Shown: one piece after another, positions 5,390 through 19,161 of the stretch | Position numbering within the stretch: position 1 is the first letter of the stretch | Layout: the number at the start of each line of letters is the position of its first letter | From: a virus | Virus record (IMG/VR): IMGVR_UViG_3300044961_000678 | Span: 1-37,565 of that record | DNA: 37,565 bases | Strand: one strand, 5' to 3' | Translations under genes and position numbers: made by a program | The notes under the pieces: generated by a model | What the model was told of the DNA's origin: nothing | Databases searched by the model: none | The model's input: only the letters and a program-made list of their open reading frames with translations

Positions 5390-5436
5390 CATAAAGGAGC
5401 CGCCTCGGCCGTCGGCCGAGGCGGCTCCTTTATGCT
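5388..5436. terminator. Perfect 23-bp hairpin after the 4997 gene
   Basis: The arms 5388-5410 and 5414-5436 are exact complements across a GTC loop, forming the longest stem in the window. The 3' arm ends in CCTTTATGCT with only three consecutive T. It probably ends the rightward transcript. It also supplies the ATG (5432) of the frame in repeat copy A. Confidence 0.65.
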
Positions 5437-5650
5437 CCCTCAGGAAGTGGCGCTTGCGTTTCGGCGGTGGTCGGGCGACCATAGATCGCCCAACACCACC
5501 GCCGACGAAGAGCATCAGGAGATCGCGCGGATCGGGCAATCGCTGCCTGCGCGATCCGCGCCGGAAGCGTCGTTCTCATCGCCCACATCCCTGGGAGGAT
5601 GTGGGCGATTGCTTTCATCGCTGACGCGCTGCGGCCATTCCAGGCCGAGC
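5437..5650. repeat. Hairpin repeat, copy A
   Basis: This is the first of four related segments (A 5437-5650, B 8497-8710, C 12712-12800, D 14061-14165). It holds three hairpins: GGGCGA arms at 5473-5491, GCGCGGATCG arms at 5525-5561 and CGCCCACATCC arms at 5580-5607. The outer sequence matches copy B (CTCCCTCAGGAAGTGGCGCT at the left, CGCTGACGCGCTGCGGCC at the right). The loops of all three hairpins are reverse-complemented relative to copy B (two exactly, the third with one mismatch). A rightward frame from 5432 stays open through the copy because the swaps keep length. Confidence 0.8.
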
Positions 5651-5820
5651 GCGGCGTACCGCACCGCTGCCCGCGCCGCGCTGCTGCGGGATGCGATGAT
5701 TGCTCGATTGTGCGGATCGTTTCCAACCCACGCCAAGGCTTCGGCGAGGGCTGCGAACCGATGAACGAGGTTGGGGCAAACGCCCCGATTGATTGCGTAA
5801 AAATGTCTGCTGTTTCTCAT
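5515..5820 (-). CDS. Possible small gene, unknown function
   Basis: A 101-residue frame starts at ATG 5820 with AAGGAAG upstream. It includes HRFAALAEALAWVGNDPHNR and AAVRYAALGLEWPQRVSD, which read as ordinary protein. The second of these recurs in repeat copy B (8650-8740) as AAVRYAALDLEWPQRVSD but without the N-terminal part, so B carries a fragment. It follows gene P1 in the same direction and could be the last gene of that operon. The C-terminal third overlaps the hairpin repeat and may be accidental. Confidence 0.42.
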   Translation of the reverse strand: MRNSRHFYAINRGVCPNLVHRFAALAEALAWVGNDPHNRAIIASRSSAARAAVRYAALGLEWPQRVSDESNRPHPPRDVGDENDASGADRAGSDCPIRAIS

Positions 5821-5910
5821 GTTTGGCCGCTTCCTTATAAAGATCCACCAGGTGGTGGTCTTTTCATGGCCGCGCGTCGGTCTCGGCCGACGCGCGGGCG
5901 AATGCCCCCC

Positions 5911-6759
5911 TCATTCGCCTACCAGACAACTGACCGTACTGCCCAGCAACGGGCGGTAGATCGTGATCGTCTCGCCGGGTTGCGGCGCGGTCGCAGGCAC
6001 CGCGCCGGCGAACTGATCTGGATGCATCAAATATTCGCATGGCATCCAGCCATGCTCCTCTCCCCACTCGTCGGCCCGAATGATAAATTGCTGCAAGGCC
6101 TCGTAGAGGCCCTCTTCGGTTTGGCGACGCAGCCAGATGACGTCGCCGTTCATCATCTGGTAGGCTTTTCCTACGCGCACGGCAGCAGCCGAGCGTTCCT
6201 TTGGCGTCAGCGGGCGCTCGACCAGGCACGTTTGTGCCCGGTGCATGAGGCGCAGCGCGGTTCGGAGATTGTCACGAACCGCCGTGCACGTTTGTTCACG
6301 GTACATTCGTTCCAGCGCGGTGCGATGCACCACGCGAGCGCCGAGATAATTGAGATCTTCGACAAAATAATCTTCGAAAGCACAGAACACTTTTACCACT
6401 TTGCCATTACTGGCATCGTGGTACAAGTCTGCCAGCGCGGACGCGCCCATTGTCCGCGCTTCGGCCTCCGCTTCCCCGATGTTGCCCGGATTGATGTTCC
6501 GGGCATACCACCAGTGACGGTCGCCCTCTGGTTGCTGCAAAAAGATGCCTGCCGCCTCGCCGGCGATCCGGCAGGCTATCTCCTGGCGCCATTCGAATGG
6601 CGCCAGGAGATCTAGCAGCCATGCGAGATCTAAGCAATCCGGGTGGTGATCCGCGATTTCCTCGAGCGAGCGGGGCTCGTCCCCCGCCCACTCGAGAAAC
6701 TCCTCAATCTCCTCTGGGCAGGCATTGTGGTTTTCTAGCCATGTTTGATCAATTTTCAT
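5911..6759 (-). CDS. P-family paralogue P1, unknown function
   Basis: This is a 282-residue member of a family found six times here. The order is an N-terminal motif (MKIDQTWLENHNACPE, then EWAGDEPRSLEEIADHHPD and DLAWLLDLLAPF), a middle INPGNIGEAEAEART and ALADLYHDASNGKV, and a C-terminal CEYLMHPDQFAGAV and TIYRPLLGSTVSCLVGE. The N-terminal WL-x4-AC pattern recalls a short domain common in phage hypothetical proteins. The protein looks soluble and acidic. AGGAGG precedes the ATG. It is 66 bp after P2 in the same direction, behind hairpin 6781-6802. A 34-bp perfect palindrome (6578-6611) lies inside the coding sequence. Function unknown. Confidence 0.85.
   Translation of the reverse strand: MKIDQTWLENHNACPEEIEEFLEWAGDEPRSLEEIADHHPDCLDLAWLLDLLAPFEWRQEIACRIAGEAAGIFLQQPEGDRHWWYARNINPGNIGEAEAEARTMGASALADLYHDASNGKVVKVFCAFEDYFVEDLNYLGARVVHRTALERMYREQTCTAVRDNLRTALRLMHRAQTCLVERPLTPKERSAAAVRVGKAYQMMNGDVIWLRRQTEEGLYEALQQFIIRADEWGEEHGWMPCEYLMHPDQFAGAVPATAPQPGETITIYRPLLGSTVSCLVGE
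6578..6611. repeat. 34-bp perfect palindrome inside P1
   Basis: ATCTCCTGGCGCCATTC (6578-6594) is followed directly by its exact reverse complement. An identical palindrome lies in P6 at 12205-12238, while P2-P5 carry a shorter inverted repeat (CCATTCGA arms) at the same place. It encodes the residues around APFEWRQEI. Confidence 0.9.
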
Positions 6760-6780
6760 TGGTTTCCTCCTTGCCGCTTC

Positions 6781-6802
6781 GTGGGCGGCTGTGGCCGCCC
6801 AC
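6781..6802. repeat. Hairpin between P2 and P1
   Basis: GTGGGCGGC, loop TGTG, GCCGCCCAC. The matching hairpin between P5 and P4 (10179-10200) has the same arms and the loop CACA, its reverse complement. It lies in the leader of P1, just upstream of the ribosome-binding site. Confidence 0.85.
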
Positions 6803-6825
6803 AGAAATGTTGAGGGCTAAATTCT

Positions 6826-7677
6826 TCATTCGCCTACCAGACAACTGACCGTACTGCCCAGCAACGGGCGGTAGATCGTGATCTCCTCGCCCGGTTGCGG
6901 CGCGGTCTCTTCGACCGCGCCGGCGAACTGATCTGGATGCATCAAATATTCGCATGGCATCCATGCATATTCGACATCCCACTCGTCGGCCCGAATGATA
7001 AATTTCTGCAAGGCCTCGTAGAGGCCCTCTTCGTTTTGGTGCCGCACCCAGAAAACGTCGTCGCCTATTAGATAGGCTTTCCCCACCCGCTCGGCTGCTG
7101 CCGAGCGCTCTTCCGGGGACAGCGGGCGCTCGACCGGGCACGTCTGCGCGTGCTCGATGACGCGCAGCGTGGTTCGGAGATTGTCACGAATATCCGTGCG
7201 CAAACTGGCACGGTACGTTCGTCTCATCCAGATTCGGATGTTGTTATTATCCCGAATCTCGCTATCGTCTTTTGTCTCGAGATCCTCGATAATCTCGAGC
7301 AAACCGTAGAGAACATCCTCCACGTCGCCATTACTGGCATCGTGGTACAAGTCCGCCAGCGTCAACGCGCCTATTTTCCGCGCTTCTGCCTCCGCTTCTG
7401 CGATGTTGCCCGGATTGATGTTCCAGGCAAACCGCTCGTATCCCACGGATTGCCGAAAAAAGATGCCTGCCGCATCGCCGGCGAGGCGGCAGGCTATGTC
7501 CATTCGAATATCGAATGGAGCGACCTTGTCTATGATCCATGCGATATCGAAGGAATCCGGGTGGTGCTCCGCAATCTCCTCCAGTGAGCGGGGTTCGTTC
7601 CCCGCCCAATCGAGAAACCGCACAATTCCTTCTAGGTACGCATTGTGTTGTTTGAGCCAGGTTCGATCGATTTTCAT
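6826..7677 (-). CDS. P-family paralogue P2, unknown function
   Basis: At 283 residues this is the first gene after the promoter-leader module at 7678-7776. It matches P1 closely at both ends (EPRSLEEIAEHHPDSFDIAW and TIYRPLLGSTVSCLVGE). It differs in the middle, where it carries an acidic insertion (LLEIIEDLETKDDSEIRDNN). Hairpin-loop swaps relative to other copies change APFEYR to APFDIR, GAVSSTAP to GAVEETAP and CRIAGEA to CRLAGDA. AGGAGG precedes ATG 7677. No enzyme motif is visible. Confidence 0.85.
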   Translation of the reverse strand: MKIDRTWLKQHNAYLEGIVRFLDWAGNEPRSLEEIAEHHPDSFDIAWIIDKVAPFDIRMDIACRLAGDAAGIFFRQSVGYERFAWNINPGNIAEAEAEARKIGALTLADLYHDASNGDVEDVLYGLLEIIEDLETKDDSEIRDNNNIRIWMRRTYRASLRTDIRDNLRTTLRVIEHAQTCPVERPLSPEERSAAAERVGKAYLIGDDVFWVRHQNEEGLYEALQKFIIRADEWDVEYAWMPCEYLMHPDQFAGAVEETAPQPGEEITIYRPLLGSTVSCLVGE

Positions 7678-7776
7678 TGGTTTCCTCCTTGCCGCGCGAT
7701 AGCGCGCGTGTGGCCCCCACGAGGGGGTGTTTGAATATCATGACGCAATTATAGCACAATCATAATGCAATGTCAA
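7678..7776 (-). promoter_or_regulatory. Promoter-leader module, copy 1 (P2-P1 operon)
   Basis: Reading leftward: perfect TTGACA (7776-7771), 17 bp, perfect TATAAT (7753-7748). The leader then forms CCCCC-TCGT-GGGGG (7727-7714) and a CGCGC-GATA-type hairpin (about 7707-7691) before the AAGGAGG site. Three nearly identical copies serve P3, the P5-P4 operon and P6. The downstream part of the repeat seen in other copies (CGTCGATATG and the GAAGCGAGG hairpin) is found here only at 8149-8191, as if the 7904 gene had been inserted. Confidence 0.88.
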
Positions 7777-7813
7777 CGGGTATTTTTATGACAAAACTGT
7801 CATCAAATAGTTC

Positions 7814-7889
7814 GATCAATTATCAAATTGCCTATTGATCATAGCGAAAGTTGTGGTATGATGTTATTATCAATAATCCGATTGATAAT
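7814..7889 (+). promoter_or_regulatory. Rightward promoter with two inverted-repeat operators
   Basis: TTGATC (7835-7840), a 16-bp spacer and TATGAT (7857-7862). GATCAAT (7814-7820) and ATTGATC (7834-7840) form an inverted repeat covering the -35 box; ATTATCAA (7866-7873) and TTGATAAT (7882-7889) form another just below the -10 box. An ATGACA/TGTCAT repeat lies at 7788-7803. This arrangement suggests repression by a dimeric regulator. Confidence 0.65.
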
Positions 7890-7903
7890 GAAAGGAACCC
7901 ACA

Positions 7904-8146
7904 ATGACCACCGTAACCATCCGCATCACCCGCGAACGCTTGGCGGCCATGGACGACCACGAGATGGTCGTCTATGGAACCCCGAACACGTGGGAGCCCT
8001 ATTGGGCCTCACGGCCAAGCTTTATGTATGACAAGTGCCTCGCAACGCCACGCGATTTCTATGAGTTTTACGATCTCGATCGTGAAGCCTGTGACGATGA
8101 CGAGGATGAGATTCTCGAGTTGACGGTTGTCGTTGATGAGGAATAA
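7904..8146 (+). CDS. Small acidic protein, unknown function
   Basis: The 80-residue product starts with AAAGGA eight bases upstream. The N-terminal part (TTVTIRITRERLAAMDD) could be strand and helix; the C-terminal end is very acidic (ACDDDEDEILELTVVVDEE), as in DNA mimics and some anti-defence proteins, but that is only a resemblance. It has its own operator-flanked promoter and is opposite in direction to the P genes on either side. It splits the promoter-leader repeat in two, which suggests insertion. Confidence 0.75.
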   Translation: MTTVTIRITRERLAAMDDHEMVVYGTPNTWEPYWASRPSFMYDKCLATPRDFYEFYDLDREACDDDEDEILELTVVVDEE

Positions 8147-8160
8147 CGTCGATATGTCAT

Positions 8161-8191
8161 GGAAGCGAGGGGGGGATACCCCCTCGCTTCC
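8161..8191. terminator. GAAGCGAGG hairpin, copy 1
   Basis: GGAAGCGAGGGGG pairs with CCCCCTCGCTTCC across GGATA. Related hairpins lie at 9629-9656, 11477-11505 and 12516-12543. No T-run follows. It sits between the 7904 and 8207 genes. Confidence 0.6.
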
Positions 8192-8206
8192 GCTAGGAGC
8201 AAAACC

Positions 8207-8428
8207 ATGAAATTGAACGTGAATCGCTATTACGATCTTACCTGGAATGCGGAGGATCAAGAGGGGAAATGGACAAGCGATGATGAAGGCTGTCTCGTGC
8301 TCCTCTGCCAGGAGCACGGTGACTTGCTGGAAGACGCCGGCGAAACCCAGTGGGCCGGCAACGGCGACTATGGCCACCTGTGTCGCTGTGAGTATCCCGG
8401 CTGCCTCATCAATAATGGTGTCAAATGA
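8207..8428 (+). CDS. Small Cys-rich protein, unknown function
   Basis: The 73-residue product starts at ATG 8207 with AGGAG seven bases upstream. Four to six cysteines with a histidine (GCLVLLCQEHGD, then HLCRCEYPGC) suggest a small zinc-binding fold. There is no membrane segment. It probably shares the transcript from the promoter at 7814-7889. Its stop overlaps the start of the 8425 frame as ATGA. Confidence 0.72.
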   Translation: MKLNVNRYYDLTWNAEDQEGKWTSDDEGCLVLLCQEHGDLLEDAGETQWAGNGDYGHLCRCEYPGCLINNGVK

Positions 8429-8631
8429 CCGGGAATAAGCGCAGTGGCAATCGAGGGAGCCGCCGTGGCCGCCGGCTGCGGCGCTCCTTCACGCTCCCTC
8501 AGGAAGTGGCGCTTGCTTTTCGCTTGTGGTGTTGGGCGATCTATGGTCGCCCAACGACACCCGAAGAAGAGCAGCAGGAGATCGCGCGGATCGTACAGGC
8601 AGCGATTGCCCAATCCGCGCCGGAAGCATAG
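8425..8631 (+). CDS. Small basic protein spanning repeat copy B
   Basis: The 68-residue frame begins by ATGA overlap with the preceding gene and has no clear ribosome-binding site, so it would depend on coupling. The N terminus is very basic (NRGSRRGRRLRR). The rest (LPQEVALAFRLWCWAIYG, then QQEIARIVQAAIAQSAPEA) reads like a short helical protein. The same frame exists in repeat copy A from 5432, with residues altered where hairpin loops are swapped. Copy D keeps only the EIARIVQEAIARSAPEA part. Confidence 0.5.
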   Translation: MTGNKRSGNRGSRRGRRLRRSFTLPQEVALAFRLWCWAIYGRPTTPEEEQQEIARIVQAAIAQSAPEA

Positions 8632-8710
8632 TCATCATCGCCCACATCCTCTCAGGGATGTGGGCGATTTCTTTCATCGCTGACGCGCTGCGGCCATTCC
8701 AGGTCGAGCG
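8497..8710. repeat. Hairpin repeat, copy B
   Basis: It holds the same three hairpins as copy A: GGGCGA arms 8534-8552, GCGCGGATC arms 8584-8620 and CGCCCACATCC arms 8640-8667. Loop TCTATGG (8540-8546) is the reverse complement of CCATAGA in A. The 16 bases at 8596-8611 are the reverse complement of 5534-5549. The right flank also carries the AAVRYAALDLEWPQRVSD fragment on the minus strand. From 8632 to 8796 I see no intact gene. Confidence 0.8.
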
Positions 8711-8796
8711 CGGCGTACCGTACCGCTGCTTCGCATTGCGGCGCTTCATCCCACCGCGAAAGCGTGTGGGCTTTCGCGCCAAGGTTTCTGTAAAAG

Positions 8797-8828
8797 AATG
8801 CCACCGGCTCGCTTGAGCCGGTGGCATT
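8797..8828 (-). terminator. Intrinsic terminator of the tRNA gene
   Basis: AATGCCACCGGCTC pairs with its exact complement across a 4-base loop. Read leftward, the stem is followed by a T-rich stretch (CTTTT). It lies 8 bp past the tRNA 3' end. Confidence 0.75.
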
Positions 8829-8836
8829 TGATTTGA

Positions 8837-8909
8837 AACGAGAGACGGGGTTCGAACCCGCGACATGCACCTTGGTAAGGTGGTGCTCTACCAACTGAGC
8901 TACTCCCGC
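8837..8909 (-). tRNA. tRNA-Gly-like gene, anticodon ACC
   Basis: The minus strand folds as a cloverleaf of 73 bases: acceptor GCGGGAG with CTCTCGT (one G-U inside, one at the end), D-arm GCTC-AGTTGGTA-GAGC, anticodon loop TTACCAA, T-arm GCGGG-TTCGAAC-CCCGT, and U as discriminator. The body closely resembles bacterial tRNA-Gly(GCC), but the wobble base is A, giving anticodon ACC for GGU codons. The outermost anticodon-stem pair is C-C. The CCA end is not encoded. It has its own promoter and terminator. Whether it is charged and used is unknown. Confidence 0.9.
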
Positions 8910-8918
8910 AATGCCATT

Positions 8919-8947
8919 AGTATAGCATAGCTCGGTTGGGAAAGCAA
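8919..8947 (-). promoter_or_regulatory. Promoter of the tRNA gene
   Basis: Reading leftward: TTGCTT (8947-8942), 17 bp, TATACT (8924-8919), 9 bp before the tRNA. Confidence 0.7.
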
Positions 8948-9006
8948 ATCGTTAGCTCGAAAACCCTTTCGGCAGGTGGATCTGCCGATCGGGGCAGGCT
9001 ATCATG

Positions 9007-9043
9007 GTGCGGCGCACCTGAACAAATGCCAGGTGCGCCGCAC
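9007..9043. terminator. Hairpin downstream of P3
   Basis: GTGCGGCGCACCTG (9007-9020) pairs exactly with 9030-9043 across a 9-base loop. It starts 6 bp past the P3 stop in the leftward direction and probably ends that transcript. No T-run follows. The rest of 8948-9006 holds only a small CGGCAG/CTGCCG hairpin. Confidence 0.6.
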
Positions 9044-9048
9044 TATCC

Positions 9049-9501
9049 CTATGCTTCGGGCACGCTTCGCAACGCCTCGCGGAACATTGTGTCGATTTGC
9101 TCCGGCACGCGGCCGTCTCTTGTGAAATAATTTACGTATGTGAACATACAGTTTCTTATTCTGCCAGCGCTGGCAGAATCACCAAGCATTTTGAGGCCTT
9201 CCGTCAGGCATTTCCACTTGACGCCGGCTCTGGCGAGCCGCATATAATCTTTTTCGCCTACCGGCGGCCAATCGTACCGATTGAATTCGCCGGTCGCCGC
9301 GTTGACCATATCGCAGGCCAACGCCATTCGAATGTCGAATGGACAAAGGAGATCTATCAGCCATGCGAGATCTTTCGCATCCGGGTAGTGATCCGCGATT
9401 TCCTCGAGTGAGCGGGGCTGCTCCCCCGCCCACTCGACAAACCGCGCAATCCTCTCTGGGCAGGCATTGTGGCTTTTTAGCCACGCTACATCGATTTTCA
9501 T
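9049..9501 (-). CDS. P-family paralogue P3, short form
   Basis: The product is 150 residues. It keeps the family N terminus (WLKSHNACPE, QPRSLEEIADHYPDAKDLAW, LLCPFDIR) but then diverges (residues 75-130). It ends in PEQIDTMFREALRSVPEA, which is shared only with P4. The C-terminal half of the long members (YHDASNG to CLVGE) is missing. AAGGAGG precedes ATG 9501, and a copy of the promoter-leader module lies just upstream. A 22-bp perfect palindrome (9158-9179) is inside the coding region. It may be a recombinant rather than a simple truncation. Confidence 0.8.
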   Translation of the reverse strand: MKIDVAWLKSHNACPERIARFVEWAGEQPRSLEEIADHYPDAKDLAWLIDLLCPFDIRMALACDMVNAATGEFNRYDWPPVGEKDYMRLARAGVKWKCLTEGLKMLGDSASAGRIRNCMFTYVNYFTRDGRVPEQIDTMFREALRSVPEA

Positions 9502-9599
9502 GTCATTCCTCCTTGCCGCGCGATAGCGCGCGTGTGGCCCCCACGAGGGGGTGTCTGATATCATGACGCAATTATAGCACAATCATAATTCAATGTCAA
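9502..9599 (-). promoter_or_regulatory. Promoter-leader module, copy 2 (P3)
   Basis: TTGACA (9599-9594), 17 bp, TATAAT (9576-9571), then the CCCCC-TCGT-GGGGG leader hairpin, the GCGCG hairpin and AAGGAGG. It is almost identical to the modules at 7678, 11351 and 12387. Confidence 0.88.
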
Positions 9600-9628
9600 T
9601 GGGTATTTTTTTACGTCGATATGTAATG

Positions 9629-9656
9629 GAAGCGAGGGGGGATACCCCCTCGCTTC
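9629..9656. terminator. GAAGCGAGG hairpin, copy 2
   Basis: GAAGCGAGGGGG, loop GATA, CCCCCTCGCTTC. It lies between the P4 stop and the P3 promoter, so it may end the P5-P4 transcript. The whole hairpin is the reverse complement of the copy at 12516-12543. Confidence 0.65.
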
Positions 9657-9677
9657 GTTGTCCAGATGCGCCGCACC

Positions 9678-10157
9678 CTATGCTTTGGGCAGAGCAACGC
9701 TCCGCAACGCCTCGCGGAACATTGTGTCGATATGCTCCGGCACGTCTTTGTCAAATTTGCTGACGAATGTCAACAATGTCTCGAGGACGCGTCCTCGGGA
9801 CGCTTCCTCGTAGACATAGATGAGATCCTCCGACGATGCTCGCCAATTGAGCGCAAATTCCAGGGCTTCCCCGATGTTGCCCGGATTGATGTTCCGGGCA
9901 AACCACCAGTGGCGGTAGCCGTAGCCTGGTCGCCGCGAAAAGATGCCTGCCGCCTCGCCGGCGATCTGGCAGGTTACGGCCATTCGATATTCGAATGGAG
10001 CGACCTTTTCTATGAGCCATGCGAGATCGAAGGAATTCGCGTGGTGCTCCGCGATTTCCTCGAGCGAGCGGGGCTCGTCCCCCGCCCACTCAACAAACCG
10101 CGCAATCACCTCTGGGCACGCATCGTGGCTTTTTAGCCACGCTACATCGATTTTCAT
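9678..10157 (-). CDS. P-family paralogue P4, short form
   Basis: The product is 159 residues. The N-terminal domain is typical (WLKSHDACPEVIARFVEWAG, DEPRSLEEIAEHHANSFDLAW) with INPGNIGEALEFALN, but the long C-terminal part is replaced by an ending shared with P3 (PEHIDTMFREALRSVALPKA). At the CCATTCGA inverted repeat (9980-9998) it reads APFEYR where P2 reads APFDIR, because the TAT loop is inverted relative to ATA. It lies 57 bp after P5, behind a hairpin, and is probably the last gene of that operon. Confidence 0.8.
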   Translation of the reverse strand: MKIDVAWLKSHDACPEVIARFVEWAGDEPRSLEEIAEHHANSFDLAWLIEKVAPFEYRMAVTCQIAGEAAGIFSRRPGYGYRHWWFARNINPGNIGEALEFALNWRASSEDLIYVYEEASRGRVLETLLTFVSKFDKDVPEHIDTMFREALRSVALPKA

Positions 10158-10178
10158 TCTTTTCCTCCTTGCCGCTTC

Positions 10179-10200
10179 GTGGGCGGCCACAGCCGCCCAC
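10179..10200. repeat. Hairpin between P5 and P4
   Basis: GTGGGCGGC, loop CACA, GCCGCCCAC. It has the same arms as 6781-6802 and the reverse-complement loop. Confidence 0.85.
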
Positions 10201-10214
10201 AGAAATGTTGAGGG

Positions 10215-11027
10215 CTAAATTCCTCCTTCGCCTACCAAACAATTGAACGTCCTGCCCAGCAACGGGCGGTAGATCGTGACCATCTCGCCGGGTTGCGGCG
10301 CGGTCGAAGAGACCGCGCCGGCGAACTGATCTGGATGCATCAAATATTCGCATGGTTCCCATGCATATTCGACACCCCACTCGTCGGCAATCATAATAAA
10401 TCGCCGCAAGGCCTCGTAGAGGCCCTCTTCGGTTTGGCGACGCAGCCAGATGACGTCGCCGTTCATCATCTGGTAGGCTTTTCCTACGCGCTCGGCTGCT
10501 GCCGCGCGTTCCTTTGGCGTCAGCGCCCGCTCGACCGGGCACGTTTGTGCCCGGTGCATGAGTCGCAGTGCGCGTCGCAGCGCGGTTCGGAGATTGTCAC
10601 GCACCTCGCGAGCGTCGATTGAATCGAGATCCACAAAATCTTCGAAAGCACAGAGCACTTTCACCACGTTGCCATTACTGGCATCGTGGTACAAGTCCGC
10701 CAGCGCGGACGCTTTCATCTGCCGCGCTTCTGCCTCCGCTTCTGCGATGTTGCCCGGATTGATGTTGAAGGCAAACCGCGCGTGGCGGTCGCCCTCTGGT
10801 TGCTGCAAAAAGATGCCTGCCGCCTCGCCGGCGACCTGGCAACCTAAGTCCATTCGAATGTCGAATGGACAAAGGAGATCTAGCAGCCATGCGAGATCTT
10901 TCGCATTCGGATGGTACATAGCAATCTCCTCCAGCGAGCGGGGCTGCTCCCCCGCCCACTCGGAAAATCGCGCAACCCCCTCTGGGCAGGCATCGTGTTG
11001 TTTGAGCCAGGTTTGATCGATCTTCAT
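10215..11027 (-). CDS. P-family paralogue P5, unknown function
   Basis: This 270-residue full-length member has the usual motifs (EQPRSLEEIAMYHPNAKDLAW, INPGNIAEAEAEARQM, LADLYHDASNGNVVKVL, CEYLMHPDQFAGAV). It ends with TFNCLVGEGGI in place of the usual TVSCLVGE. It lies 14 bp after the 102-residue gene and 57 bp before P4. The ribosome-binding site is AAGGGG rather than AAGGAGG because this copy has no promoter-leader module of its own. The GAAGA loop at 10306-10310 gives GAVSSTAP. Confidence 0.85.
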   Translation of the reverse strand: MKIDQTWLKQHDACPEGVARFSEWAGEQPRSLEEIAMYHPNAKDLAWLLDLLCPFDIRMDLGCQVAGEAAGIFLQQPEGDRHARFAFNINPGNIAEAEAEARQMKASALADLYHDASNGNVVKVLCAFEDFVDLDSIDAREVRDNLRTALRRALRLMHRAQTCPVERALTPKERAAAAERVGKAYQMMNGDVIWLRRQTEEGLYEALRRFIMIADEWGVEYAWEPCEYLMHPDQFAGAVSSTAPQPGEMVTIYRPLLGRTFNCLVGEGGI

Positions 11028-11041
11028 TCTTTTCCCCTTCC

Positions 11042-11350
11042 CTAAATTGAGCGCTCAATAATTTCGCGCTCAATGATGTCTATAGCCAAGCTTTGACGCG
11101 GATCTTTTCTGTAATGAATGAGCAATTTTGCTAATTCACTGATTGATGCTTGTTCTACAATAGAAACAAGCGAACCGTCTTTTGTTGGGTTTTTCCCCCG
11201 CTCCACGAGCGGAGAAGACTCCGCCGGAATTTCGATTTCCTGAAGAGCTCTATCAACAATTTCGCATTCAATTGCCCGCAATCTTGCGAGACGATCTGGG
11301 TGCGAGCTATTCCACCAGTAGTCAAGTTGTTTGCCAAGCTCCTTGATCAT
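11042..11350 (-). CDS. Unknown protein, 102 residues
   Basis: ATG 11350 follows AAGGAGG and the copy-3 promoter-leader module, so this gene heads the P5-P4 operon. It is unrelated to the P family in sequence. It looks helical and charged (KELGKQLDYWWNSSHPDRLA, ISELAKLLIHYRKDPRQSLA). It is visibly less GC-rich than the P genes, which suggests it was captured behind the promoter module. No motif is recognised. Confidence 0.75.
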   Translation of the reverse strand: MIKELGKQLDYWWNSSHPDRLARLRAIECEIVDRALQEIEIPAESSPLVERGKNPTKDGSLVSIVEQASISELAKLLIHYRKDPRQSLAIDIIEREIIERSI

Positions 11351-11447
11351 TGGTTCCTCCTTGCCGCGCGATAGTGCGCGGGTGGCCCCCACGAGGGGGT
11401 GTCTGATATCATGACGCAATTATAGCACAATCATGATGCAATGTCAA
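11351..11447 (-). promoter_or_regulatory. Promoter-leader module, copy 3
   Basis: TTGACA (11447-11442), 17 bp, TATAAT (11424-11419), then the two leader hairpins and AAGGAGG. It drives the 102-residue gene, P5 and P4. Confidence 0.88.
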
Positions 11448-11476
11448 TGGGTATTTTTTTACGTCGATATGTAATG

Positions 11477-11577
11477 GAAGCGAGGGGGGTATCCCCCCTC
11501 GCTTCGTTGTCCAGGCGCCGCACCCTATGCTTTGGGCAGAGCAACGCTCCGCTCATGCCCGCGCGGCGGCCGCCGGC
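11477..11577. repeat. GAAGCGAGG hairpin copy 3 and P4-like fragment
   Basis: 11477-11505 is a symmetric hairpin (GAAGCGAGGGGGG, TAT). At about 11526-11551 the minus strand carries the last codons of a P4-like gene (RSVALPKA then stop) with nothing in front. 11550-11577 is a GC-rich hairpin (GCGCGGCGGCC arms). This is a junction of recombined pieces between P6 and the next promoter. Confidence 0.7.
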
Positions 11578-11597
11578 CGCCGCGCGGCAGATGCCCT

Positions 11598-12386
11598 TCA
11601 TTCGCCTACAATGCAACTGACCGTACCGCCCAGCAACGGGCGGTAGATCGTGATCTCCTCGCCCGGTTGCGGCGCGGTCGAAGAGACCGCGCCGACGAAC
11701 TGATCTGGATGCATCAAATATTCGCATGGCTCCCATGCATATTCGACCCCCCACTCGTCGGCGATATACGCCGACTTCCAAAGAACCTCGTAGAGGCCCT
11801 CTTCGGTTTGGCGACGTACCCAGAAAACGTCGCCGTCTAGCTCATAGGCTTTTCCCACCCGCGCGGCAGCAGCCGCGCGTTCCGCTGGCGTCAGCGCCCG
11901 CTCGACCGGGCACGTCTGCGCGTGCTCGATGAGGCGCAGCGCGGTTCGGAGATTGTCACGAACCACGCGAGCGCCGATTGACTCGAGATCCACAAAATCT
12001 TCAAAAGCACAGAACACTTTTACCACTTTGCCCTTAGCTGCATCGTGGTACAAGTCTGCCAGCGCGGACGCTCCCATTGTCCGCGCGTCGGACTCCGCTT
12101 CCCCGATGTTGCCCGGATTGATGTTGAAGACATACCGCGCGTGGCGGTCGCCCTCTGGTTGCCGCGAAAAGATCGCGGCCGCCTCGCCGGCGATCCGGCA
12201 GGCTATCTCCTGGCGCCATTCGAATGGCGCCAGGAGATCTAGCAGCCATGCGAGATCTTTCGCATCCGGGTGGTACATAGCAATCTTCTCGAGCGAGCGG
12301 GGAGTCTCCCCCGCCCACTCGACAAACCGCGCAATCCCCTCTGGGCAGGCGTTTTGGTTTTGTAGCCAGGTTCGATCGATCTTCAT
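11598..12386 (-). CDS. P-family paralogue P6, unknown function
   Basis: This 262-residue member is transcribed alone from the copy-4 module. Motifs are WLQNQNACPEGIARFVEWAG, SLEKIAMYHPDAKDLAW, INPGNIGEAESDART and CEYLMHPDQFVGAV. It reads LYHDAAKGKV where the others have ASNG, and ends TVSCIVGE. The 34-bp palindrome of P1 is present at 12205-12238, and the AGCA (11868-11871) and GAAGA (11680-11684) loops show which orientation it carries. No catalytic residues are recognised. Confidence 0.85.
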   Translation of the reverse strand: MKIDRTWLQNQNACPEGIARFVEWAGETPRSLEKIAMYHPDAKDLAWLLDLLAPFEWRQEIACRIAGEAAAIFSRQPEGDRHARYVFNINPGNIGEAESDARTMGASALADLYHDAAKGKVVKVFCAFEDFVDLESIGARVVRDNLRTALRLIEHAQTCPVERALTPAERAAAAARVGKAYELDGDVFWVRRQTEEGLYEVLWKSAYIADEWGVEYAWEPCEYLMHPDQFVGAVSSTAPQPGEEITIYRPLLGGTVSCIVGE

Positions 12387-12485
12387 GTCATTCCTCCTTG
12401 CCGCGCGATAGTGCGCGGGTGGCCCCCACGAGGGGGTGTCTGAATATCATGACGCAATTATAGCACAATCATAATGCAATGTCAA
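12387..12485 (-). promoter_or_regulatory. Promoter-leader module, copy 4 (P6)
   Basis: TTGACA (12485-12480), 17 bp, TATAAT (12462-12457), followed by both leader hairpins and AAGGAGG. Confidence 0.88.
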
Positions 12486-12515
12486 CGGGTATTTTTTTTA
12501 CGTCGATATGTAATG

Positions 12516-12700
12516 GAAGCGAGGGGGTATCCCCCCTCGCTTCGTTGTCCAGATGCGCCGCACCCTATGCTTTGGGCAGAGCAACGCTCCGCTCATGCCC
12601 GCGCGGCGGCCGAGACCGACGCGCGGCAGATGCCCTTCATTCGCCTACCAAACAACTGACCGTACCGCCCAGCAACGGGCGGTAGATCGTGAAATAATAA
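12516..12700 (-). pseudogene. Mosaic of P-family fragments
   Basis: The stretch starts with the GAAGCGAGG hairpin copy 4 (12516-12543). It continues with the P4-like C-terminal end (RSVALPKA), a hairpin with CGCGCG arms (12600-12625), and then the last codons of a long P gene (TIYRPLLG...LVGE) at about 12640-12691. There is no start and no body. It joins directly to hairpin repeat copy C. It looks like the scar of a deleted seventh paralogue. Confidence 0.7.
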
Positions 12701-12711
12701 TAGATGTAGGA

Positions 12712-12800
12712 GATCGCGCGGATCGCGCAATTGCCTCCTGCCCAATCCGCGCCGGAAGCGGAGTCATCATCGCCCACATCCTCTCAGGGATGTGGGCGTG
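12712..12800. repeat. Hairpin repeat, copy C
   Basis: It holds the GCGCGGATC hairpin and the CGCCCACATCC hairpin (12771-12798) but lacks the left part of copies A and B. The 18 bases at 12724-12741 are the exact reverse complement of 14074-14091 in copy D. Confidence 0.78.
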
Positions 12801-12830
12801 AGATAAAAATGTATGCTGATGGAGATAATT

Positions 12831-14009
12831 ATGAGTCTATCAACCTATCAAAAATCGATGTTTCCGTATTTCGGTGGCAAATCCTTGGCAGCGCCGCTTG
12901 TCTGGTCATTGCTTGGCGATCCTGCGCACTATGTTGAGCCTTTTTTTGGCAGCGGCGCGGTGCTGCTGTTTCGCCCGCATCCAGCAAATAGATCGAATTT
13001 TTCTGAAACGGTCAATGATTTCGACGGATTTATCGCCAATTTTTGGCGAGCTATGCAATATGATGCGCAAGCTACCGTCGAATTTGCTTCGTGGCCGGTC
13101 GTCGAGGCTGAGCTGCACGCGCGGCATATTGCTATTATCCAATGGATGCGCGACGGCAATGCGGAACGGTTGGCTGGCGATGTGCAATATTATGATGCGC
13201 GGATTGCAGGGTATTGGTTGTACGGAATTTGCGCCTGGATCGGCTCTGGTTGGGGCCACGAGCAGAGCGGCCCCTGGTGGCCTGATGCTGACGGTCGTCT
13301 GGTCAAGCGTTCGGGCAATTCAGGCGTGACTCGAAAACTACCACATGTGAGCGCCGATGGTCAGGGCGTGCATCACTGCAAGGCACGTGAGCCAGGAGTG
13401 ACTCGACAACTACCACGTGTGGGCGCCGATGGTCAGGGCGTCCATCACTGCAAGGCACGTGAGCCAGGCGTGACGCGAAAACTACCACATCAGGATGAGG
13501 ATTTAGCTGATATCATCGAGGCTGATTACGCGGCCTCAGACGAATACCATCCTATGACGATGCCCGAAATTCGCCGGTGGGCCCATTGGCTCCAAGCGCG
13601 TATGCGTCATGTGCGCGTGGCGAACGGTGATTGGCAGCGGATTTGTAGCTCCAGCGTATTGCGCCCAATGCCTAGGGGAGGCAAGCCCCATGTGTCGGGC
13701 ATCTTCCTTGATCCGCCGTATAAACACAGCGAGAGATCAGCGCAATTGTATCGAGAGGATCAAGACATTGCATCTGACGTACGCGAATGGTGCCTACAAA
13801 ATGGCAACAATTCTCAATATCGGATAGTGCTGGCGGGGTTCGCCGGCGAGGGACACGAAATATTAGAAAAAAATGGCTGGAGCGTGTATGAATGGTACGA
13901 ACACCAATTGTTCAGGAGCGGCTATGGGCACCAGCAGCATCGAGAACGTCTGTGGGCGTCGCCGCATTGCTTGCTTCCAATGTTGCCGCTGGATGCGCTC
14001 TGGGAATAA
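12831..14009 (+). CDS. D12-class DNA N6-adenine methyltransferase (Dam-like)
   Basis: The 392-residue product has the D12-class order: MFPYFGGKS near the N terminus, the S-adenosylmethionine motif VEPFFGSGAV (residues 35-44) and catalytic DPPY (294-297). GATC is the usual target of this class. Residues about 160-225 form an inserted region with two full 24-residue repeats and a partial third (VTRKLPH, GVHHCKAREPG). From memory, similar RQLPH-type repeats occur in other phage enzymes of this class. The start at 12831 has GGAG six bases upstream. It stands alone between the P region and the late operon. It may methylate the many GATC sites, including those in the origin. Confidence 0.87.
   Translation: MSLSTYQKSMFPYFGGKSLAAPLVWSLLGDPAHYVEPFFGSGAVLLFRPHPANRSNFSETVNDFDGFIANFWRAMQYDAQATVEFASWPVVEAELHARHIAIIQWMRDGNAERLAGDVQYYDARIAGYWLYGICAWIGSGWGHEQSGPWWPDADGRLVKRSGNSGVTRKLPHVSADGQGVHHCKAREPGVTRQLPRVGADGQGVHHCKAREPGVTRKLPHQDEDLADIIEADYAASDEYHPMTMPEIRRWAHWLQARMRHVRVANGDWQRICSSSVLRPMPRGGKPHVSGIFLDPPYKHSERSAQLYREDQDIASDVREWCLQNGNNSQYRIVLAGFAGEGHEILEKNGWSVYEWYEHQLFRSGYGHQQHRERLWASPHCLLPMLPLDALWE
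13326..13492 (+). repeat. 72-bp tandem repeats inside the methyltransferase gene
   Basis: Two full 72-bp units (13326-13397 and 13398-13469) are followed by a partial third. The copies are nearly identical, differ by only a few bases and keep the reading frame. The encoded segment lies where target recognition usually resides in D12 enzymes. Confidence 0.88.
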
Positions 14010-14060
14010 TGCAATGCCCGCTGCATTATTCTCGTGGTGGCCGACGAGGGCACCACGAGA

Positions 14061-14165
14061 TCGCGCGGATCGTGCAGGAGGCAATTGCGCGATCCGCGCC
14101 GGAAGCGTCGTCATCATCGCCCACATCCTCTCAGGGATGTGGGCGCGTTTTTTCATCGCTGACGC
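14061..14165. repeat. Hairpin repeat, copy D
   Basis: It holds the GCGCGGATCG hairpin (about 14064-14099) and the CGCCCACATCC hairpin (14118-14145, loop TCTCAG). It is followed by TTTTTTCATCGCTGACGCG as in copies A and B. The second hairpin with its T-run could end the methyltransferase transcript. Confidence 0.78.
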
Positions 14166-15102: not shown

Positions 15103-15597
15103 ATGGCGCGGCCAAAGCTCAATGCCGACCAACGCATCCAGGTGATTGAGTGGCTCGCCGCTGGCTATGCGGGCGATCTTATTCGGCATTGGAGCAAGGA
15201 GCGGGGATGGCCAGAAATCAGCGATCAGGCGCTCAACTATTATCGCAAACGTCTGAGCAAGCCCATCGAAGCAGCCCGCAAGGCTCGCTTTGCGGCCGCG
15301 CTGAACACGGGACTCGCGCTGCGGGCCGAACGGGTGGCTCGCCTGGCCGCCCATGCCGATCGGCTTGAGATCATCAAATGGGAAGCGGACGAGAACGGGC
15401 GATTATGGAATGAGAAAGCATGGCGCGAAACGCTCGACGATATCGCCCGCGAGACCGGCGGCCGCCGTGCGGGAGTCTCCGTGAGCCTAGAGTCAGAGCT
15501 GGAGTCTTTTCTTGACCGAGTCCGCGAACAATTCGACCCGGATACCTACGCCCGGATCGTTGCTCTCGCAGCTGGCAGCGCGACGGATTCAGCGTGA
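15103..15597 (+). CDS. Terminase small subunit (probable)
   Basis: The 164-residue product starts at ATG 15103 with GGAG about nine bases upstream. The N terminus looks like a DNA-binding helix-turn-helix (LNADQRIQVIEWLAAGYAG, DQALNYYRKRLSK), followed by a long helical body. This is the layout of phage small terminases, which bind the packaging site and recruit the large subunit. It is directly upstream of, and overlaps, the large terminase gene. The assignment rests on position and general character. Confidence 0.72.
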   Translation: MARPKLNADQRIQVIEWLAAGYAGDLIRHWSKERGWPEISDQALNYYRKRLSKPIEAARKARFAAALNTGLALRAERVARLAAHADRLEIIKWEADENGRLWNEKAWRETLDDIARETGGRRAGVSVSLESELESFLDRVREQFDPDTYARIVALAAGSATDSA

Positions 15598-17053
15598 TCC
15601 CGAGCTTGCGTCGCGCATCCGAGCAATGAGCCCCAGCGCCCCAGCCGGGGCCGCGATCCGTTGGTCGCCATTTGTTGGGCCGCAAACCATGGCCTTGCAT
15701 AGCGAGGCCGATATTATCGGCTACGGCGGGGCCGCTGGAGGCGGCAAAACGGATCTGCTGATCGGGGCGGCACTGCTCATGCATTATCGGTCGATCATCT
15801 TTCGCCGCCAAGCCGAGCAGCTGCGCGATATTATCGAGCGTTCCAAAGAGATCATCGGATCGTCCGGGCGATTGAATGAGAATTATAAAATCTGGCGCGA
15901 TCTGCCTGGCGGCCGCCGACTTGAATTTGGCGGGATGAAAAATGAGCACGACGTGAATCGCTATCGCGGGCGAGCGCACGATCTCAAGGCGTTTGATGAG
16001 CTCACCGAATTTAGCGAAATGCAATTCAGAACGATTATTGCATGGAATCGTTCCGCTGAGGGGCATCGATGCCGCACGATCGCGGCGTTCAACCCGCCGA
16101 CTTCGCAGTATGGCATGTGGGTGATCAAGTTTTTCGGCCCGTGGATCGACCCAGCCTATAAAGGCGTCCGGGCGAAGCCCGGCGAACTGCGCTATTTCGC
16201 CATGGTCGACGGCAAAGAGATTGAGCGGCCCGGCCCGGACGCGTTTGAACACGGCGGGCGAATTATCCAACCAAAAAGCCGTACGTTCATCCCCGCGCGA
16301 CTCGAGGATAATCCGGCCCTGCTGGCGAGCGGCTATGCGGCGACTCTTGATGCGCTGCCCGAGCCGCTCGCCACGGCGCTGCGTACGGGATCGTTTATCA
16401 TGGCGCACGGGGCCGATCCCTGGGCCGTCATCCCCAGGGCCTGGGCTGAAGCGGCCCGGCGGCGAGGGATCGAGCGGGGCAATCCCACGGGGCCGATCTC
16501 CATGCTGGGAGTCGACGTTGCTCGGGGCGGCGACGACGAAACGGTGATTGCCCGGCGTCGCGGGACGGCCTTCGATCCGCTGCTGGTATGGCCTGGCAAA
16601 GAAACGCCGGATGGGCCGAGCGTGGCAACGCTGGTCATCCAGCAAATGGAGTCTCCCGAAGATCCGATCACGGTCGACGGGATCGGCGTAGGGGGGAGCG
16701 TGGTCGATCAGCTGGCCGCGATCGACGGCATCCGGATAACGGCGGCGATCGCGAGCATGCGCAGCGATCCTACGGCCCGCGATCGGCGCGGCATGCTCAG
16801 CTTCAAAAATGATCGGGCGATGTGGTGGTGGCGTTTCCGTGAGGCGCTTGATCCGAATCACGGCGATGAGATTGCCTTGCCCGATGACGACGCCTTGATC
16901 GAAGAGCTCTGCGCACCGCGATTCATGGTGCGATCGGGGACGATCCAGATCGAGGAAAAAGACGACATCAAAATGCGCTTGGGGCGCTCGCCGAATCGTG
17001 CAGATGCGCTGCTCTTAGCGCATCAAGAGAGCGCATCATTGATGCTATGGTGA
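15512..17053 (+). CDS. terL: Terminase large subunit
   Basis: The 513-residue packaging motor has an ATPase with Walker A GGAAGGGKT (residues 72-80) and the Walker B region LKAFDEL (159-164). The RNase H-like nuclease half has Asp residues in GVDVARGGDDE (333-343), TVDGIGVGG and the SPNRADALLLA end. The start is TTG 15512, with GGAG upstream, giving an 86-bp overlap with the small subunit gene; ATG 15626 is an alternative but has a poor ribosome-binding site and shortens the N terminus. It overlaps the portal gene by a few bases. It cuts and pumps DNA into the prohead. Confidence 0.95.
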   Translation: MTESANNSTRIPTPGSLLSQLAARRIQRDPELASRIRAMSPSAPAGAAIRWSPFVGPQTMALHSEADIIGYGGAAGGGKTDLLIGAALLMHYRSIIFRRQAEQLRDIIERSKEIIGSSGRLNENYKIWRDLPGGRRLEFGGMKNEHDVNRYRGRAHDLKAFDELTEFSEMQFRTIIAWNRSAEGHRCRTIAAFNPPTSQYGMWVIKFFGPWIDPAYKGVRAKPGELRYFAMVDGKEIERPGPDAFEHGGRIIQPKSRTFIPARLEDNPALLASGYAATLDALPEPLATALRTGSFIMAHGADPWAVIPRAWAEAARRRGIERGNPTGPISMLGVDVARGGDDETVIARRRGTAFDPLLVWPGKETPDGPSVATLVIQQMESPEDPITVDGIGVGGSVVDQLAAIDGIRITAAIASMRSDPTARDRRGMLSFKNDRAMWWWRFREALDPNHGDEIALPDDDALIEELCAPRFMVRSGTIQIEEKDDIKMRLGRSPNRADALLLAHQESASLMLW

Positions 17054-19161
17054 GGGATATGCTGAATAGCCCTGGCCCGATGAAAGCCATCCCCGTCGAC
17101 CAATATCCCGAGGAATCATGGTGGGTTTTGGGGGGCCAAACGGGCATGCCCGATGGGGCGCTTTCGCCGCATTTGGCCTATAGCAAGGTCGGATTGTTGT
17201 ATCGCGCCGTCGACATTCGGGCGAAAGCCGTATCGGCCTTTCCCTTGACGATCGAACGCAATGGGCGCGATGTGACGAAGGACGACGAGACGCTGGCCTT
17301 CCGGCATGATCTTCGCCGGGCGCTTTGGCTCACCGAGGCGTCATTGTGTTTGTACGGCGCTTCCTACGCCTTGGCCCTCCACAACGGCCTGAAATGGCTG
17401 CAGCCGCAGACCATCACCCCCAACTATGATCCGAACGCTGCCGACGGGATCGCCGGATGGACTCGCCGAGTCAACGGCAAAGAGATCCGCATCAAGCCGA
17501 AAGACATTACCTATACATGGCTGCCCAATTTGGCCGAAGAGATCGGCCCGGGCATTGCTCCTGCCGTCCCAGCGCTGGCCGCTGCAGGGGTGCTCCACAA
17601 TCTTGATCGCTATTTGGCTGGCTATTTCGAGCGGGGCGCGATTCGGGCAACGCTGTTGATCGTCGAGGGCCAGCCGAGCAAAGACGAAAAGGAAAAACTT
17701 GAAAAATGGTGGAAGCGGATGCTGTCGGGAGTCAAAAAGGCCTACGAAACCGTGGCGCTACGATCGAACGTGAAGCCAGTGGTGATCGGCGATGGGCTGC
17801 AAGAAACGACGAATAAGGAACTGACCGATCAGCAACGCGAGGGTATTCTCATCCCCATGGGGGTGCCGATTTCGATCGTGCTCTCGAATGCGTCGACGTT
17901 CGCGACCGCACAACAGGATTCGCTCAATTTCTACGATCTGACCGTATGCCCTCAGATCGAGTTAATCGCCGAGTCGTTTGAACCATGGTTTCAAAAAACG
18001 GGGTATCGGGTGATTTTCCATCCGGAGCGGCTTGATGTGTACGTGGATCGACTGCTCCGCAAAGCCGATGCGCTGAGCAAAATCAGCGGCCCTCAGCCAT
18101 TGCTTGATCGCGACGAGTCGCGGCGCATGCTGAATCTGCCGCCGTGGGCCGACGTCGCACCGCCCGAGCCACCGGCCCGGGCAGCATTGCCCGATCCGCC
18201 ACGGAATTCGAACGCCCCCCAGGGCGAGGCGATCGACCAAACCAATACGCCAAGCAACCCCCAGCCAACCAATACAAGCCCATCCGCCAAGCAACCCCCA
18301 GCCCCCAGCAAGGCGTACGATCTCGACCTGGCCCGATGGGAGAAAAAGGCCGCCAAGCGGATCGCCGCCGGGCGCTCGCCGGGGCCGTTTCAGAGCGATT
18401 CGATCCCCGTGGGCTTGCAGGCCGAAATCCGCTCCCTCCTCGATCAGGCCGAAGGGGCCGCCGATGTGGGCGCGATCTTCCGGGCAATCCATCGCGGCCC
18501 GGGGCAGGATCTGAGCGCAACGGAGCAATGGTTGTATGACGCGCTGGTCGCATTGTTTGCCCGATTCGAATCGGCGATCGTCGATCAGATTATCAGCGGG
18601 GGAGCGGTCGACCTCGCGCAGCTAGACTCGGCCATGCGGGACAAAATGACTGAGGCGATGATCAACGTCATCATTGACAAGTTGATCGCGCTCCCCGCGA
18701 CTCTCGATCTGCCAGCGGTCGACCCGGTGCAATTGCGGTTCGAGCCGATGGCCCTATGGGCCGATCAATATATCGACCCCGTCATCGGAGGCATCCAACA
18801 AACCAATCGGCAATTGGTCGAGTCCGCCGTGCAGCTCTATCGCGCCACACCGGGCATGACGCGAGCTCATGTCGAGGCGATGATCGCCGCACGATTTGGC
18901 GCGGCTCGGGCCGATATGATCGCGGTAACAGAGATCACGCGGGCGCAAAGCCTGGCAACCCGCTACTATCAGGAGTATCTCCGCCGGGCCGGGATCACCA
19001 TGGTACGTGTTTGGCGAACAAACCGCGATGATCTCGTGTGCGCCGTTTGTGGCCCGCTCAATGGCAAGCCCGAGTCCGCATGGGCCGATCGCTATCCGAA
19101 CGGCGCCCCGGCCCATGCCGGGTGCCGCTGTTCGCAAACGCTTCAGCTGGAGTCCGAATAA
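17047..19161 (+). CDS. Portal protein fused to a MuF-like head morphogenesis domain
   Basis: The 704-residue product joins two proteins that are often separate. Residues about 20-365 are an HK97-type portal (YRAVDIRAKAVSAFPLTI, GIAPAVPALAAAGVLHN, GVPISIVLSNASTFATAQQD). A Pro/Asn-rich linker follows (about 375-425). The C-terminal part ends in a MuF-type region with a Cys/His cluster (DDLVCAVCGPLNGK, then PAHAGCRC). ATG 17047 overlaps the terminase stop; ATG 17059 is the alternative. The portal forms the DNA entry ring, and MuF-like proteins are minor head components. A single open frame spans both, so this is a true fusion. Confidence 0.92.
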   Translation: MVRDMLNSPGPMKAIPVDQYPEESWWVLGGQTGMPDGALSPHLAYSKVGLLYRAVDIRAKAVSAFPLTIERNGRDVTKDDETLAFRHDLRRALWLTEASLCLYGASYALALHNGLKWLQPQTITPNYDPNAADGIAGWTRRVNGKEIRIKPKDITYTWLPNLAEEIGPGIAPAVPALAAAGVLHNLDRYLAGYFERGAIRATLLIVEGQPSKDEKEKLEKWWKRMLSGVKKAYETVALRSNVKPVVIGDGLQETTNKELTDQQREGILIPMGVPISIVLSNASTFATAQQDSLNFYDLTVCPQIELIAESFEPWFQKTGYRVIFHPERLDVYVDRLLRKADALSKISGPQPLLDRDESRRMLNLPPWADVAPPEPPARAALPDPPRNSNAPQGEAIDQTNTPSNPQPTNTSPSAKQPPAPSKAYDLDLARWEKKAAKRIAAGRSPGPFQSDSIPVGLQAEIRSLLDQAEGAADVGAIFRAIHRGPGQDLSATEQWLYDALVALFARFESAIVDQIISGGAVDLAQLDSAMRDKMTEAMINVIIDKLIALPATLDLPAVDPVQLRFEPMALWADQYIDPVIGGIQQTNRQLVESAVQLYRATPGMTRAHVEAMIAARFGAARADMIAVTEITRAQSLATRYYQEYLRRAGITMVRVWRTNRDDLVCAVCGPLNGKPESAWADRYPNGAPAHAGCRCSQTLQLESE

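Follow-up and report, generated by a model that had tools for sequence, protein, structure and literature searches.

Many DNA hairpins in two sets of repeats of this phage, the P genes and the N elements, carry, in one copy, a loop that is the reverse complement of the loop in another copy. The DNA is IMG/VR virus record IMGVR_UViG_3300044961_000678, positions 1-37,565 (the window, that is, the whole stretch analysed), and the repeats were studied in the pieces covering positions 5,437-14,165. Inverted loops are found at about ten hairpin loci, changes in the hairpin arms are often one-sided, hairpins are in large excess and a similar event is seen in other phages. The best explanation, with a probability of roughly four in five, is that the polymerase switched template at short inverted repeats, and that this is neutral mutation and not a programmed system. 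Spacer inversion is an already published class of mutation and the finding is therefore less singular than first proposed; what is unusual is the density of events and hairpins, many of them in coding P genes.

Inverted loops between repeated copies

Hairpins a, b and c lie in the intergenic N copies (Table 1). Direct reading of hairpin a gives a reverse complement match at seven of seven positions (5479-5485 versus 8540-8546) and a match in direct orientation at two of seven. The corresponding counts for hairpin b are 16/16 and 6/16 (5534-5549 versus 8596-8611) and 18/18 and 4/18 (12724-12741 versus 14074-14091), and for hairpin c 5/6 and 0/6 (5591-5596 versus 8650-8655). The orientation of hairpin b is the same in N1 and N3 and in N2 and N4, whereas by its right-hand ends N2 pairs with N3, and N1 with N4. 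These conflicting groupings do not fit one ancestral flip that was then copied; they require either at least one flip together with exchange or more than one flip.

Beside the P genes, the loops at 5881 and 12610 are reverse complements at 6/6 positions (2/6 in direct orientation), those at 6790 and 10188 at 4/4 (0/4) and those at 9641 and 12528 at 4/4 (2/4), again by direct reading. The left arm of the hairpin at 12599-12626 matches 11559 and its right arm matches 5887. Several intergenic hairpins resemble terminators or leader hairpins.

The sequence-only reading had listed seven of these loop pairs; six are exact reverse complements where it had placed them, and the seventh (hairpin c, given as 8651) is shifted by one base and matches at five of six positions. 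Its proposal that the interior of the hairpin is inverted is well supported by the 7/7, 16/16 and 18/18 matches, for which point mutation is indeed inadequate. Its statement that inversion explains all pairs went too far, since a loop of 3-4 nt carries little weight by itself and could have arisen by point mutation.

That reading had also placed flipped loops inside P genes, and more coding cases were found. TCTTC at 6908 is inverted relative to GAAGA at 10306 and 11680 between arms of 10 bp, and CCTCGCCGGCGATC and CATCGCCGGCGAGG (6555 versus 7473) are reverse complements at 13 of 14 positions. Smaller inverted pairs are AGCA/TGCT (6184 versus 7096, arms 4-8 bp) and ATA/TAT (7508 versus 9988). 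Coding flips can alter residues (VEET versus VSST; DIR versus EYR), and one leaves an alanine run as it is. Many P-gene hairpins are present in one or two copies only. For example, a perfect 34-nt hairpin in P1 is identical in P5 at 12205-12238 and absent from P2, P3a, P3b and P4 (2/6 P copies), and is a palindrome that has been created or extended. Several strong hairpins, such as those at 6676 and 6958, have loops that changed without inversion, a point against template switching; the former reads GCGGGG-CTCGTC/TTCGTT/CTGCTC/AGTCTC-CCCCGC. P1 has no match in Pfam or PHROG.

Table 1. Hairpins and P paralogs in the repeated region, with positions in the window
Feature	Position	Strand	Description
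Hairpin a, N1	5473-5491	.	GGGCGA-CCATAGA-TCGCCC; loop inverted versus 8534-8552
Hairpin b, N1	5525-5561	.	arms GCGCGGATCG, interior includes GGGCAATCGCTGCCTG
Hairpin c, N1	5578-5609	.	arms 13 bp, loop CTGGGA
Hairpin adjoining P1	5870-5897	.	CCGCGCGTCGG-TCTCGG-CCGACGCGCGG
P1 paralog	5911-6759	-	8 strong hairpins within gene versus 0.97 after synonymous shuffling
Perfect 34-nt hairpin in P1	6578-6611	.	15-bp arms, TCGA centre
Hairpin upstream of P1	6781-6802	.	GTGGGCGGC-TGTG-GCCGCCCAC
P2 paralog	6826-7677	-	loop TCTTC at 6908 encodes V-E-E-T
Hairpin a, N2	8534-8552	.	GGGCGA-TCTATGG-TCGCCC
Hairpin b, N2	8584-8620	.	inverted interior (CAGGCAGCGATTGCCC)
Hairpin c, N2	8637-8668	.	arms 13 bp, loop TCTCAG
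P3a, shorter paralog	9049-9501	-	
Terminator-like hairpin	9629-9656	.	GAAGCGAGGGGG-GATA-CCCCCTCGCTTC
P3b, shorter paralog	9678-10157	-	loop TAT at 9988 versus ATA at 7508
Hairpin upstream of P3b	10179-10200	.	counterpart of 6781-6802; loop CACA
P4 paralog	10215-11027	-	loop GAAGA at 10306 encodes V-S-S-T
P5 paralog	11598-12386	-	loops GAAGA at 11680, AGCA at 11868
Counterpart of terminator-like hairpin 9629-9656	12516-12543	.	loop TATC
Homologue of hairpin 5870-5897	12599-12626	.	loop CCGAGA, one arm mismatch
Hairpin b, N3	12716-12752	.	CGCGCAATTGCCTCCTGC
Hairpin b, N4	14063-14099	.	interior inverted versus N3 (GCAGGAGGCAATTGCGCG)

Loops, arms and hairpin density compared with controls

At eighteen hairpin loci both copies have perfect arms of 6 bp and their loops differ at two or more positions, a set that includes non-inverted differences. 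The loops are at least 80% reverse complementary at nine of them and exactly so at five, compared with a mean of 0.86 and a maximum of 4 when loops are shuffled. A scan that does not require a hairpin, based on homologous intervals with at least three mismatches, rendered eight inverted pairs of at least 5 nt and none in either the reverse-only or the complement-only control; it replaced an earlier blind scan on loose alignments, which was too noisy.

Mutation clusters that are reverse complements of adjacent sequence, and arms of 6-13 bp that bound the inverted loops, agree with template switching at short inverted repeats. A nearby reverse complement copy of at least 10 nt explains 21 of 338 directed mismatch clusters, against 0 (reverse), 0 (complement) and 1 (shuffled) in the controls. 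Imperfect arms appear to have been perfected from one side: where arms differ at three or more positions, one side only is altered in 21 of 64 comparisons (6.8 expected), and 24 compensatory pair changes were counted. In both the cluster and the arm tests the events are not independent and the pair counts overlap, because the paralogs have a common origin and sequence exchange between them seems to have occurred.

Strong hairpins number 107 when about 10-14 are expected, approximately ten times the expectation. The densest 5 kb holds 39 of them, compared with 14 at most in any of 73 control sequences, and the excess in P coding sequence persists against synonymous shuffling. The region is probably a compact archive of template switching by a phage, covering both coding and non-coding DNA, with the two loop orientations side by side in paralogs. 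It shows how hairpins within genes may arise and flip, so that adjacent residues change together with no point mutation involved, and to ordinary tests such multi-residue flips can look like positive selection. What in the phage or its host permits so exceptional a hairpin density is a question that can be tested.

Proposed template switching and its alternatives

During phage replication, a polymerase could stall at a short inverted repeat, switch at one arm onto the complementary strand, copy the interior of the hairpin in reverse and switch back at the second arm. The loop would then be inverted, with arms and length unchanged. Similar switches would rewrite one arm from the other, so that palindromes are created or perfected, and the P and N repeats would keep both loop states side by side. 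The process is probably replication-based and inter-strand, and the flips are most readily seen as neutral mutation that fast-evolving accessory genes tolerate.

The sequence-only reading had named template switching or an enzyme as the source of the inversions. The former is favoured because the arms are also rewritten from one side and new palindromes appear, while no positive evidence for an enzyme has emerged. The same inverted loops could result from recombination between the arms, or from a structure-specific nuclease that cuts and rejoins an extruded cruciform; the arms are perfect or almost so, and one phage protein (35584-36009, minus strand) has a match to the Holliday-junction resolvase family phrog_190. 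However, the Pfam match of this protein is only DUF1064, of unknown function, 6-13 bp is a short arm length for homologous recombination, and one-sided arm rewriting and new palindromes are left unexplained, which makes this route improbable.

A dedicated invertase, generating programmed diversity or phase variation of P proteins, would account for flips in paralogous genes that can change residues, and nonsynonymous codon differences do exceed synonymous ones among the P paralogs. This is nevertheless very unlikely. No invertase, integrase or recombinase match was found among the phage proteins scanned (small ORFs in part), which leaves room for a host enzyme, comparison by inspection of ten arms from inverted loci revealed no common motif or recognition sequence, and flips occur in non-coding hairpins as well as in the coding hairpin with the preserved alanine run. 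With regard to diversity-generating retroelements, there is no reverse transcriptase among the family-scan matches and the changes seen here are inversions.

It is also conceivable that selection for RNA hairpins such as terminators and leader structures preserves the stems while the loops drift freely, in line with the terminator-like or leader-like intergenic hairpins and the compensatory changes. Free drift does not produce exact reverse complements of 7, 16 and 18 nt and was rejected as the source of these long inverted loops; in addition, the P-gene hairpins confined to one or two copies fit poorly, and as a full account this model has hardly any probability. Selection on intergenic stems may act as an additional force.

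A more far-reaching version of template switching, in which the accessory region is a hypermutable zone where flipping and palindrome creation are fast enough to diversify P proteins within a population, is improbable. It would involve a phage-specific trait of replication or repair, e.g. an ability to tolerate hairpins that host nucleases would normally remove.

Known systems and other phages

In Saccharomyces cerevisiae genes, template switching leads to arm homogenization and spacer inversion, with ten inversions of 2-5 nt spacers among yeast strains, seen only with arms longer than 9 bp (Abraham and Hazkani-Covo 2021, PMC8604942). Yeast and phage share perfect arms that are kept, a reverse complemented spacer, arm homogenization, multi-base and amino acid changes in coding genes and the coexistence of both orientations. 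The phage differs in having about ten loci in 9 kb, inverted interiors that reach 18 nt and, at some loci, shorter arms; these arms, of 6-8 bp, are a counterpoint to template switching. Template-switch loop inversion, alone or with stem repair, and stem creation are also known from rRNA and microRNA genes, bacteria included, where most affected loops are of 4 nt and lie in structural RNA genes (PMC8794818), and not in protein-coding and intergenic DNA as here.

Minute inversions in chloroplast DNA hairpins, e.g. trnH-psbA, are described in PMC2903610 (citing Kelchner and Wendel 1996) as flips of a loop between inverted repeats among close relatives; these lie in non-coding plastid spacers, whereas the phage flips are in paralogous genes and spacers. 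According to the available text of PMC6649704, mitochondrial genes of Nematomorpha resemble the phage in having many perfect inverted repeats within protein-coding genes, many of them species-specific, with template switching proposed as their source. Those palindromes are much longer (up to 284 bp), and loop inversion, a feature of the phage, is absent from that text.

In the viral and bacterial contigs searched, no relatives of the P proteins were found, and searches with the conserved arms of hairpin b and with the methyltransferase also rendered none. No relative with the same loci was found, which prevents the flips from being counted and given a direction on a tree. The sole near-identical viral contig found (6976 bases) covers the terminase region and ends short of the repeats; it differs from the phage by 32 mismatches, none of them in a cluster.

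The window is a virus contig taken from a public collection built on metagenomes and repeats are known to cause misassembly, but an assembly or amplification artefact is extremely unlikely. The arms of 6-13 bp are far below usual assembly k-mers, so each loop should be anchored by its flanks, and flips occur at many separate sites. Moreover, a similar flip separates independently deposited Caulobacter phage genomes, in which an independent 10-nt loop inversion distinguishes BL94 from RapA, Jess A and SR18.

Inverted loops between repeated copies

The sequence-only reading had claimed that hairpin loops in repeated copies are exact reverse complements of each other. When all seven listed pairs were read from the sequence this was true for six; in the seventh the inversion is present at five of six bases, and its position had been displaced by one base. 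The longest pairs match at 16 of 16 and 18 of 18 positions as reverse complements but at only 6 and 4 positions in direct orientation. Further inverted loops were found within the family of six paralogous P genes: TCTTC (P2) against GAAGA (P4 and P5), AGCA against TGCT, ATA against TAT, and a 14-base interior that matches at 13 positions once inverted. To the eye, P1 near 6286 and P2 near 7198 also show what may be an older inversion, since altered by point changes, in a 10-base loop flanked by CCGTG and CACGG.

At the protein level, V-E-E-T becomes V-S-S-T through the TCTTC/GAAGA flip and the ATA/TAT flip goes with I versus Y, while AGCA/TGCT leaves an alanine run unaltered. The flips gave no evidence of a programmed purpose. 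The short N repeats (5427-5600, 8486-8640, 12708-12800 and 14055-14150) have a common open frame (...LPQEVALAFR...EIARIVQAAIAQSAPEA...), the peptide of which is swapped by loop inversion; this frame may represent a gene, possibly decayed, or else a terminator region.

Chance was assessed in three ways, with about ten loci behind the counts, which do not represent independent events since the pairs overlap. Among stretches that lie between homologous flanks and carry three or more mismatches, eight pairs of length at least 5 are accounted for by reverse complementation, and none by reversal or complementation alone. Exact reverse-complement copies 10 or more bases long, with their source within about 40 bases, cover 21 of 338 directed mismatch clusters (controls 0, 0 and 1). 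Nine of 18 hairpin loci with differing loops are at least 80% reverse complement, and five exact reverse complements were observed compared with a mean of 0.86 (maximum 4) after loop shuffling at 18 loci. Taken singly, the shortest loops are weak evidence for inversion.

Searches of viral and bacterial contigs found no relatives with the same loci. The Caulobacter phages RapA and BL94 differ by 2.4% mismatches, and among the 49 clusters of mismatches between them, one consists of a 10-base loop perfectly inverted, GGCCGCGC-AGCTCGTGCC-GCGCGGCC versus GGCCGCGC-GGCACGAGCT-GCGCGGCC, with the RapA form also in Jess A and SR18. No loop inversion of at least 10 nt was found in a pair of Bordetella phages or in two distantly related pairs.

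Hairpin arms and mechanism

Where paralog arms differ at three or more positions, one arm alone had changed in 21 of 64 comparisons (6.8 expected). For example, TTCCGGGCA of P1 and P3b pairs with a nearby TGCCCGGA, and P4 and P5 have TTGAAGGCA or TTGAAGACA there. A 34-base hairpin, ATCTCCTGGCGCCAT-TCGA-ATGGCGCCAGGAGAT, is found in P1 and P5 and is missing from the other four copies. Among the hairpins at 5870, 11559 and 12599, the one at 12599 is imperfect and intermediate to the two perfect ones, which is what copying of either arm onto the other would produce.

Recombination between hairpin arms could also invert loops, and it is kept in play by a minus-strand protein (35584-36009) matching 'Holliday junction resolvase' in PHROGs (phrog_190) and only DUF1064 in Pfam. 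Pure flipping would, however, leave the arms untouched, whereas they are altered, often on one side. No recombinase or invertase matched among the proteins scanned, and the arm sequences of ten inverted loci have no common motif.

In yeast coding genes, template switching between inverted-repeat arms leads to arm homogenization and spacer inversion, with ten spacer inversions described; the paper names Ripley (1982) as the first to propose template switching in bacteriophages (PMC8604942). Loop inversions are known in rRNA, including bacterial cases (PMC8794818), and chloroplast hairpin inversions are treated in PMC2903610. Dense coding palindromes in Nematomorpha mitochondria are described in PMC6649704. 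Set against this open-access literature, the phage region is an unusually dense case of a mutation class already known, most likely template switching at inverted repeats.

Hairpin density

Perfect hairpins with arms of 8 bp or more number 107 in the window; 54 lie inside 5400-12800, compared with 2.6 there in shuffles. The ratio to expectation is 10.2, versus 1.6 for a control set of 73 phage or prophage-bearing sequences (about 1.59 Mb in all), and the densest 5 kb holds 39 hairpins where no control exceeds 14. Coding hairpins numbered 8 in P1, 7 in P2, 4 in P4 and 6 in P5, against 0.97, 0.78, 0.58 and 0.53 after synonymous shuffling. Counts in the tested packaging, head and large downstream genes lay inside the range of their own synonymous shuffles. 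The coding excess fits a mutational process kept where proteins tolerate it; a functional reason is also conceivable.

Gene content and ends of the record

Tailed-phage genes are present in the 37,565-base virus record.

Coordinates of features in the virus record and of the Caulobacter loop
Feature	Position	Remark
MT-A70 methyltransferase	357-1229	
Sigma factor	1067-1957	
Six paralogous P genes	between 5400 and 14200	minus strand
N1-N4 short-repeat family	between 5400 and 14200	
tRNA-Gly, anticodon ACC	8837-8909	inside accessory region
D12 adenine methyltransferase	12813-14009	
Terminase	15512-17053	
Portal	17047-19161	
Major capsid	20434-21648	
DnaC-like loader	36211-37113	
Inverted Caulobacter loop	L015:38929-38954, L014:38740-38765	gap between two genes; BL94 vs RapA, Jess A, SR18

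The D12-type methyltransferase gene contains an in-frame 72-base direct tandem duplication (13321-13464, 93% identical). A common leader of P2, P3a, P5 and the ORF at 11042-11419 (7694-7790, 9516-9612, 11364-11460 and 12402-12500) combines a minus-strand TTGACA/TATAAT-like promoter with a pair of small hairpins and a ribosome site of the GGAGG type, and resembles a copied cassette.

The first 91 bases of the window are identical to the last 91 (regions 1-100 and 37442-37565), with seven copies of CAGATCACTGATCTGG in total, and the contig is therefore probably circular or terminally redundant. The terminal repeat lies close to the DnaC-like gene and is built of 33-bp units (CAGATCACTGATCTGGAGATCACTG...), which are possibly replication-origin iterons.
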